Assembly: GCF_001465345.1 (NCBI RefSeq)
Contig: NZ_CP013655.1
Location: 1,501,349-1,565,348, forward strand
Length of the DNA stretch: 64,000 nucleotides
Direction of reading: 5' to 3'
Source: Enterococcus rotai
GTDB taxonomy: Bacteria; Bacillota; Bacilli; Lactobacillales; Enterococcaceae
Shown here one piece after another: positions 12,167-13,396 of this stretch. The position numbers and the translations under genes are program-made. The notes beneath the pieces are model-generated. The model searched no databases and had not been told where the DNA came from. It saw nothing but the letters and a program-made list of their open reading frames with translations. How positions within the stretch are numbered: the stretch's first letter is position 1; every line of letters starts with the position of its first letter.

Positions 12167-12195
12167 TGGGCAATTGAAAAAATTTGCGTTATAAT
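12167..12195 (+). promoter_or_regulatory. Probable promoter of pepA
   Basis: TGGGCA (12167-12172), 17-bp spacer, perfect TATAAT (12190-12195). The transcript would begin near 12202, only about 11 nt before the Shine-Dalgarno sequence at 12213. Confidence 0.55.
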
Positions 12196-12212
12196 GAATG
12201 TGAAATCATATG

Positions 12213-12319
12213 AAAGGAGTATCTGCCGTTTTTGTTTAAAAATCATGTTATTTTTTACAAAAAAGAACGGTTGAACCTGAAGAAAGTCGTAAACAGGCGA
12301 ACTGGCAGATAATACAACA
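12213..12319 (+). promoter_or_regulatory. Structured pepA leader separating Shine-Dalgarno from start codon
   Basis: AAAGGAG is at 12213-12219. The next 92 nt (12220-12311) begin with TATCTGCC and end with its exact inverted repeat GGCAGATA. After the second arm 8 nt (ATACAACA) remain before the pepA ATG, and no ribosome-binding sequence lies there. Two inner hairpins can be drawn: TTTGT..AAAAAT with ATTTTT..ACAAA (12231-12265 region), and CCTG with CAGG (12276-12297 region), giving a three-way junction. Folding would bring the Shine-Dalgarno sequence to 8 nt from the ATG. A competing reading is a 26-codon TTG-started leader ORF at 12232-12312 rich in Lys and Arg, ending 7 nt before pepA. Confidence 0.6.
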
Positions 12320-13396
12320 ATGGAAGAAAAAACTTTTCAACGCATCAAAGAACTAACAGAACTACAAGGAACAAGCGGATTTGAAGATGATATTCGTGCG
12401 TATATGAAAAAAAATATGGCACCATTAGTAGACGAGATTCAATATGATGGTTTAGGTGGGATTTTTGGTCTAAAAAGAGCAAAAGAACAAGATGCGCCAC
12501 GCGTTATGGTTGCCTCTCACATGGACGAAGTTGGTTTTATGTTGACACAGATCAAAGACAATGGATTATTCCAAGTGGTTCCTTTAGGTGGTTGGAATCC
12601 CTATGTCGTCTCAGCACAACGTTTTACATTAAAAACAAGTAAAGGCAATTATCCATGTATTTCTTCTTCAGTTCCGCCACACTTATTACGTGGAACAGGC
12701 GGTCAAAAACAACTAGAAGTAACGGATGTGTTATTTGATGCAGGTTTTGAATCAAAAGAAGAAGCGGAAAGTTTTGGCGTTCGCCCAGGTGATTCAATCG
12801 TTCCACAAACAGAAACGATCAAAACAGCCAATGGTAAAAATATCATCAGTAAATCATGGGATAATCGCTATGGTTGTACATTAGTTTTAGAAGCATTAGA
12901 AGCTTTGCAAAACGAACAATTAGGCCATACATTAATTGCGGGTGCTAATGTTCAAGAAGAAGTTGGCTTACGTGGTTCTAAACCTTCTGTTCATAAATTT
13001 AATCCTGATCTATTCTTTGCAGTGGATTGTTCAGCAGCCGATGATATCCAAACGAAAAAAGGCACATATGGTCATTTAGGTGAAGGAACATTATTACGTA
13101 TTTACGATCCAGGAATGATCACATTACCTCGTGTACGTGAATACTTATTAGATACAGCAGCAACTCACAATATTCCTTACCAATATTTTGTTTCTAAAGG
13201 TGGAACGGATGCAGGTGCTGCCCATACAACAAATAATGGTGTACCAAGTACTGTGATCGGTGTTTGCGGACGTTATATCCATACACACCAAACGATGTTT
13301 AACATCAAAGACTTTGAAGCAGCTCGTGAAATGTTGATTCAAGTCCTAAAAGGATTGGATAAAACAACGGTTAACACAATCATTTACGGAAAGTAG
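12320..13396 (+). CDS. pepA: Glutamyl aminopeptidase PepA (M42 family)
   Basis: Dinuclear metal aminopeptidase that removes N-terminal Glu/Asp from peptides in the cytoplasm. The 358-residue length matches lactococcal PepA. Metal ligands and catalytic acids are visible as SHMDEVGFM (near residue 69), SWDNRYGC, NVQEEVGLRG (catalytic Glu-Glu), AVDCSAADD and the late GRYIHTHQT. The ATG at 12320 is fixed by alignment with the family start (KELTELQGTSGFE); an in-frame TAA at 12290 rules out a much longer form. Oddly, no Shine-Dalgarno sequence lies next to the ATG (see the leader entry). A thioredoxin gene follows 10 bp downstream. Confidence 0.95.
   Translation: MEEKTFQRIKELTELQGTSGFEDDIRAYMKKNMAPLVDEIQYDGLGGIFGLKRAKEQDAPRVMVASHMDEVGFMLTQIKDNGLFQVVPLGGWNPYVVSAQRFTLKTSKGNYPCISSSVPPHLLRGTGGQKQLEVTDVLFDAGFESKEEAESFGVRPGDSIVPQTETIKTANGKNIISKSWDNRYGCTLVLEALEALQNEQLGHTLIAGANVQEEVGLRGSKPSVHKFNPDLFFAVDCSAADDIQTKKGTYGHLGEGTLLRIYDPGMITLPRVREYLLDTAATHNIPYQYFVSKGGTDAGAAHTTNNGVPSTVIGVCGRYIHTHQTMFNIKDFEAAREMLIQVLKGLDKTTVNTIIYGK

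Follow-up and report, generated by a model that had tools for sequence, protein, structure and literature searches.

A predicted RNA bridge in a candidate split ribosome-binding site of pepA in Enterococcus rotai and related Lactobacillales

The pepA leader of the window and its predicted fold

The window analyzed here is a 64,000-nt stretch of Enterococcus rotai DNA (NZ_CP013655.1, positions 1,501,349 to 1,565,348), and positions below are counted from its first nucleotide. It contains pepA, whose product is the glutamyl aminopeptidase PepA (TIGR03107: 622 bits, with a cut-off of 470). The assigned ATG is backed by homologues, those from streptococci starting within a few residues of the same place. 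When the leader was scanned by ungapped pairing against the tail of 16S rRNA, no helix of at least 4 bp with the 16S 3' end was found in the normal zone before this start codon, and the strong Shine-Dalgarno sequence (SD) of the leader lies about 100 nt upstream (−10.0 kcal/mol). Immediately behind this remote SD begins a 92-nt segment that opens and closes with perfectly reverse-complementary arms, here called P1, which are separated by 76 nt. The features of the leader are as follows.

12190–12195, plus strand: putative −10 box TATAAT, assigned from sequence
12213–12219, plus strand: remote SD AAAGGAG, −10.0 kcal/mol with the 16S tail, invariant in 16 aligned leaders
12220–12227, plus strand: P1 5' arm TATCTGCC, predicted closing stem of the bridge (sequence, fold, and alignment; two-sided replacements in leader L022)
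12229–12263, plus strand: P2, hairpin arm of the predicted three-way junction (pairs 12229–12235/12257–12263 and 12238–12243/12250–12255)
12269–12303, plus strand: P3 arm (consensus pairs 12269–12271/12301–12303 and 12275–12277/12296–12298)
12304–12311, plus strand: P1 3' arm GGCAGATA (sequence, fold, and alignment)
12312–12319, plus strand: linker ATACAACA, 8 nt from the bridge to the start codon (same unpaired length in 18 of the 19 split window-genus leaders)
12320–13396, plus strand: pepA, glutamyl aminopeptidase of family M42, start ATG at 12320 (profile match, homologues)

An earlier note on this DNA had drawn attention to the segment, and its coordinates, 8-bp inverted repeat, 8-nt linker, and lack of an adjacent SD all proved exact on re-reading. 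The putative −10 box ends 16–17 nt before AAAGGAG in the window, and the gap is 16 nt in the 12 listed of 19 values for the window genus. Because the box stands so near the SD, the predicted pepA mRNA would carry only about 10 nt 5' of the SD, with transcription starting where the box suggests.

The predicted folding energy of the 92-nt segment is −20.1 kcal/mol (z −2.2), a value matched by 7 of 200 shuffles, and the stretch from the end of the SD to the ATG folds at −20.9 kcal/mol (p 0.02). With 138 nt of context the result is weaker (z −1.3; 20 of 200 shuffles). By itself, the fold of the window is thus only moderately better than chance, and it counts as beyond chance because the same arrangement recurs in relatives. 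In predicted ensembles the closing stem forms (0.93), and the SD is mostly free, with a mean unpaired value of 0.81 in the leaders of the genus and 0.66 in the window leader. The pepA AUG, by contrast, is predicted to be partly paired in context (mean unpaired 0.21 in the genus and 0.50 in the window leader). The 30S subunit would therefore have to open the AUG, which counts against a perfectly open site.

Split leaders across related families

The comparison covers 182 leaders of pepA, drawn from Enterococcaceae and other Lactobacillales families related to them. Within Enterococcaceae, leaders were obtained from 102 of 105 genomes, the other three having no match at the limit used. A search of the order drew 395 genomes, 176 of which had a match at E ≤ 1e-150, and outside Enterococcaceae we read 80 of 107 matching genomes, chosen for genus spread among the matches listed. 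Groups are given by label: g1 is the window genus (including E. ureilyticus and E. plantarum), g3 includes E. raffinosus, g4 E. mundtii, and g6 E. gallinarum and E. innesii; f8 includes Vagococcus, f2 Carnobacterium, f4 Trichococcus, and f6 Marinilactibacillus. A leader was classed as split when its adjacent SD was weaker than −5 and its remote SD −6.5 or stronger, thresholds that were chosen after viewing the sequences.

By these thresholds, 135 leaders are split, 29 have an adjacent SD only, 11 have both, and 7 have neither, so that an adjacent SD occurs in 40 of the 182, 11 of these with a remote SD too. The split arrangement is present in at least some leaders of 30 of the 37 genera examined, and a single closed domain is predicted for every one of the 135 split spacers. 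These include 120 distinct spacers, each with one domain and at most 16 exterior nucleotides, where dinucleotide shuffles lead one to expect 76.7 of this kind. These spacers range from 21 to 120 nt in length (median 31), and the count of nucleotides left unpaired outside the domain has a median of 9.5 (5–95% range 4–15). Ordinary SD spacers in 210 genes of the window's genome have a median of 7 nt (4–11), and the corresponding median in a Vagococcus-type genome (G187) is 8 nt. One published study gives an ordinary SD distance of 6–7 nt in E. faecium and E. faecalis, and the word "aminopeptidase" is absent from its main text (PMC7724050). Of the 19 split leaders in the window genus, 18 leave exactly 8 exterior nucleotides, with spacers that vary from 88 to 120 nt. 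The exception, L021, has a 42-nt spacer with a fold p of 0.36.

In shuffle tests of the 120 distinct spacers, p is at or below 0.05 in 96 and at or below 0.1 in 110. Fisher combination of the median-p member from each of 30 genera yields 9e-23, a value to be read with the caveat that genera share ancestry and are not strictly independent. The signal is uneven between groups. The stems of g4 are weak (−3.2 to −6.8 kcal/mol), with p ≤ 0.05 in only 7 of 15; in g5 this level is reached by one of six split leaders; and L239, L241, and L271 are doubtful as split leaders, having a weak adjacent SD of −3.8 and p values of 0.03–0.15. The outer 5-mers form 64 distinct pairs, arm sequence and arm distance differ between genera, and no loop or junction sequence common to genera was seen among the folded split leaders.

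Several leaders fall below the thresholds yet fold likewise, namely L058, L095, L105, L106, L034, L211, and Alkalibacterium in the named set described below. In L058 and L095 (the latter from E. innesii), a multi-branched fold of 119–120 nt lies between AAGGAGGAA and the ATG; this domain is unlike the fold of the window, but it occupies the same place and leaves 8 nt to the AUG.

The arrangement is absent in places. None of the 19 leaders of g3 is split and all 19 have an adjacent SD, and within the window genus itself L019, L020, and L023 lack the remote SD and have an adjacent SD instead. A further set of 80 named loci yielded 66 scanned leaders, 17 in-group and 49 out-group, the latter from Streptococcus, Lactococcus, Convivina, Listeria, Bacillaceae, and similar taxa. 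In-group carriers are Vagococcus, Trichococcus, Carnobacterium, Marinilactibacillus, Lacticigenium, and Alkalibacterium (L137, L140, and L143 folded); the in-group loci without the arrangement are L139, L142, and L135, the start of which is unclear. By the same definitions none of the 49 out-group leaders is bridged, and their adjacent SD is −5 or better in 33 and −3.5 or better in 47. At the Lactococcus loci L170 and L175 no adjacent SD was found, L170 being also without a recognized start codon.

Some observations concern the reading frames around these leaders. In some g3 leaders, L055 among them, another reading frame seems to lie shortly before pepA. An AUG before or overlapping the SD opens a short ORF in leaders of g1, g2, and g5 (12210–12239 in the window), and in g5 this ORF reads MKEGLASGRK, with TAG right at the pepA ATG.

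Covariation was counted within groups. For the window genus we aligned 16 of the 19 split leaders, leaving out L003 (whose leader is identical to that of L002), L021, and L022. Double changes occur in 7 of 25 pairs, compared with a shuffled mean of 1.9, and none of 500 shuffles reaches 7; sliding the partner drops pairing from 96% to 47–58%. The changes fall in the lower P2 stem (3 of 7 pairs) and in P3 (4 of 6 pairs, with 87.5% and 95.8% of cells paired), and the loop length of P3 differs among species. The three-way junction described in the earlier note is thus upheld within the window genus; in the window sequence itself P3 carries one mismatch, and the minimum free energy structure pairs the P3 region differently from the consensus.

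The note had also proposed looking for compensatory changes in P1, the stem formed by 12220–12227 and 12304–12311. There is hardly any variation within the window-genus set, where six of eight P1 pairs are invariant and two vary on one side, with only G-U changes. Two P1 pairs are, however, replaced on both sides in L022, and in g2 the leader L072, probably from E. faecalis, has the stem CCUAUU/AAUAGG. Because P1 is nearly fixed in the window genus, its covariation rests on L022 and the other genera. Among Vagococcus-type leaders we counted 12 that we had chosen for a UCUGC core, out of 24 aligned and 28 in the family, as the 24-leader alignment is too gapped to count. Their outer pair is CG in five, AU in two, GC in two, UA in two, and unpaired in one. 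The covariation score of this set is 0.240, compared with 0.070 when shuffled, and is reached by none of 500 shuffles. Of its six pairs, only the outer one shows two-sided change, and the number of pairs that do so is accordingly no higher than in shuffles (446 of 500 reach it). In a Carnobacterium-type set of six rows, two of which (L129 and L224) are the same record, double changes occur in 2 of 10 pairs, which is not significant (51 of 500 shuffles reach 2).

The bridge and its alternatives

With homologous leaders that covary and a geometry that is kept while the sequence turns over, the bridging fold proposed in the earlier note is strongly supported. We consider it probable, at about 0.82, that pepA has a split ribosome-binding site and that the 92-nt segment bridges it as RNA. 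On this model, the 30S subunit would base-pair with AAAGGAG close to where the pepA mRNA begins, while the segment would fold as a three-way junction closed by P1 and leave 8 unpaired nucleotides between SD and AUG. As 8 nt is the usual spacing, the AUG could reach the P site with the fold kept out of the way, and since the SD abuts P1, P1 could stack coaxially on the SD helix, 8 nt then extending to the P site. Closure and residual spacing alone would be under selection, and the sequence, size, and branching of the insert would be nearly free. We infer both the formation of the fold in the cell and a dependence of translation on it. The bridge would most likely be a constitutive, structure-dependent start site that sets the output of PepA.

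The closest parallels are bacteriophage T4 genes 38 and 25, in which, according to PMC3014915, an intervening structure cuts the spacing from 22 to 5 and from 27 to 11 nt, respectively; destabilizing mutations lower initiation, and close T-even phages share the arrangement of gene 25. Those features of the T4 cases that can be computed are all found in the pepA leader, which has a strong SD too far from the start, no adequate adjacent SD, and a structure predicted to restore normal spacing with 8 exterior nucleotides, as covariation supports. As in T4 genes 25 and 38, the SD of pepA is too remote and the intervening structure shortens the effective spacing, for pepA by prediction. The differences are that pepA is a housekeeping gene on a bacterial chromosome with the arrangement extending over several families, that its insert ranges from 21 to 120 nt, can be multi-branched, and is free in sequence between genera, and that the pepA leader is known from computation, whereas the T4 genes have mutational support.

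In E. coli thrS, a hairpin in the ribosome-binding region, upstream of an ordinary SD, binds threonyl-tRNA synthetase. The pepA leader likewise has a hairpin within its ribosome-binding region, but places it between SD and AUG, and no protein is implied. To our knowledge, split ribosome-binding sites are known from a few phage genes. What would be new in pepA is that the gene lies on a bacterial chromosome, that conservation runs so deep, that insert size varies so widely, and that the sequence is so free. No description of this pepA leader was found in the literature searched, which took in few subscription papers. The leaders offer dozens of natural variants, with inserts of 21–120 nt, by which to gauge how well the 30S subunit tolerates structure in the gap from SD to AUG. 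Such elements are expected to escape start-site predictors and RNA searches based on sequence.

A further question is whether the bridge is also regulated. A translational switch, as suggested in the earlier note, would have temperature, an ion, a protein, or a small RNA fold or unfold the bridge and so turn PepA synthesis on or off. Anything that melted the bridge would act on it, and the architecture is kept in at least some leaders of 30 of 37 genera although an adjacent SD can replace the split site, which suggests a use. A single sensor is, however, hard to reconcile with stem energies that spread from −3.2 to −34.4 kcal/mol across the split leaders and with the lack of common loop or junction sequences. 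Moreover, CCGUU/AACGG, a pairing that could compete with P1 in the window, is interrupted in L005 and contains a mismatch in L006, and we rejected this competing fold as a switch. RNA thermometers and translational riboswitches hide the SD or the AUG in a leader fold. The pepA leader resembles them in that its fold would affect initiation, and departs from them in keeping the SD out of the stem and in having a fold that, by prediction, favors initiation. An SD-sequestering thermometer does not describe a leader in which the SD lies outside P1 and is mostly unpaired, although the AUG is predicted to be partly paired. Nor does a riboswitch or other known RNA family: an Rfam search, proposed in the earlier note as a check, returned no curated model at gathering score and nothing relevant at E ≤ 10, the best matches being at chance level (E 2.8 or worse), and a tRNA scan found none. 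These data do not establish the translational switch, and we regard regulation of this kind as a minority possibility. Equally tentative is a broader suggestion, that PepA has in several Lactobacillales families a regulatory element free of sequence, a start site that works only with a folded spacer. If so, folding, as affected by temperature, ions, ribosome supply, or a helicase, would gate PepA synthesis, and evolution might swap the fold for another, provided that it closes, whether as small as a 10-nt tetraloop hairpin or as large as a branched domain of 120 nt.

Other explanations dispense with the bridge altogether. The hairpin might serve mainly to stabilize the mRNA near its 5' end, its position between SD and AUG being incidental; in the window genus the SD, and hence the hairpin, would indeed lie only about 10 nt behind the predicted transcription start. 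A stabilizer need not, however, hold the residual spacing near 10 nt over spacers of 21–120 nt, nor need it go with a missing adjacent SD, and we think this explanation improbable. Still less probable is a leader peptide translated from the remote SD and coupled to pepA, starting at TTG 12232 or at an AUG (12210) that overlaps the SD. The 26-codon TTG ORF put forward in the earlier note does exist (12232–12312), an AUG stands at the 5' edge of the SD in 18 of 19 split leaders of the window genus and in g2 (the peptides listed begin MKGV), and in five of six split leaders of g5 a 10-codon ORF ends directly at the pepA ATG. Across the sample these starts do not hold: the TTG is missing in 6 of the 19 window-genus leaders, an NUG 3–12 nt after the SD is found in only 47 of the 135 split leaders (AUG in 7), and the AUG at the SD edge is found in only 37, with stop codons at widely differing positions, the earliest 100 nt before the pepA ATG and others past it. 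Control by a leader peptide was rejected, as the 135 split leaders share no common frame or stop.

An inverted repeat beside a putative promoter could also be a repressor operator acting as DNA, a terminator or attenuator, or a mobile insertion, which we consider very improbable indeed. Arm sequence and distance change between genera, as the 64 outer 5-mer pairs attest; there is no U run, the up to 8 nt behind the stem being 49% A and 27% U; and a DNA similarity search found no second copy of the 92-nt segment in its own genome. All three were rejected on these grounds.

Other candidate split sites and side observations

As background, we scanned the window and twenty 20-kb stretches of its own genome, comprising 341 ORFs of at least 100 aa. 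A canonical SD is lacking in 72 of these, and pepA is the sole site at p < 0.05, with L279:7363 just missing at p 0.05. When the limits were set at 80 aa and p ≤ 0.06, eight sites appeared among 356 ORFs, three of them at the first start of an ORF without a canonical SD of −5 or better, namely pepA, L279:7363, and the weak L284:3183. The latter is a borderline candidate, a DUF443 protein gene whose ATG is preceded by a remote SD and a weak hairpin. In the Vagococcus-type genome G187, six sites were found among 346 ORFs, and the two at a first start are pepA and the very short L300:1146. That site, on the minus strand, belongs to a 113-codon ORF and has a strong SD at a spacing of 15 and, ahead of the ATG, a short hairpin (UCCUA/UAGGA). 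The other listed background sites, with starts inside ORFs, were left out without individual checks. L272:6356 looked like a strong split site and was rejected, as a plausible start farther upstream puts the hairpin inside the reading frame of the AllH-domain gene.

The second split site of the genome, L279:7320–7363 (C1:1327320–1327363), precedes the ATG of a 1277-aa SpaA-domain protein and consists of GAGAGGAG, a hairpin (TGAAATAG-TGTT-CTATTTCA), 6 nt, and the ATG. Eight of 22 genomes of the genus matched, the genome itself included, and one of the loci (L319, a 24-base match) was not used. The arrangement is kept in five relatives (L313–L317), three of which have changed loops or stem pairs. 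In L318, a natural deletion, the hairpin is absent and the SD stands 12 nt from the ATG; as read from the sequence, this is the form that a bridge would predict.

Four records labeled as Enterococcus or Listeria phages (OR846588.1, OR847138.1, OR848464.1, and PQ520036.1) match the bacterial pepA region, and these may be host sequence filed as phage.
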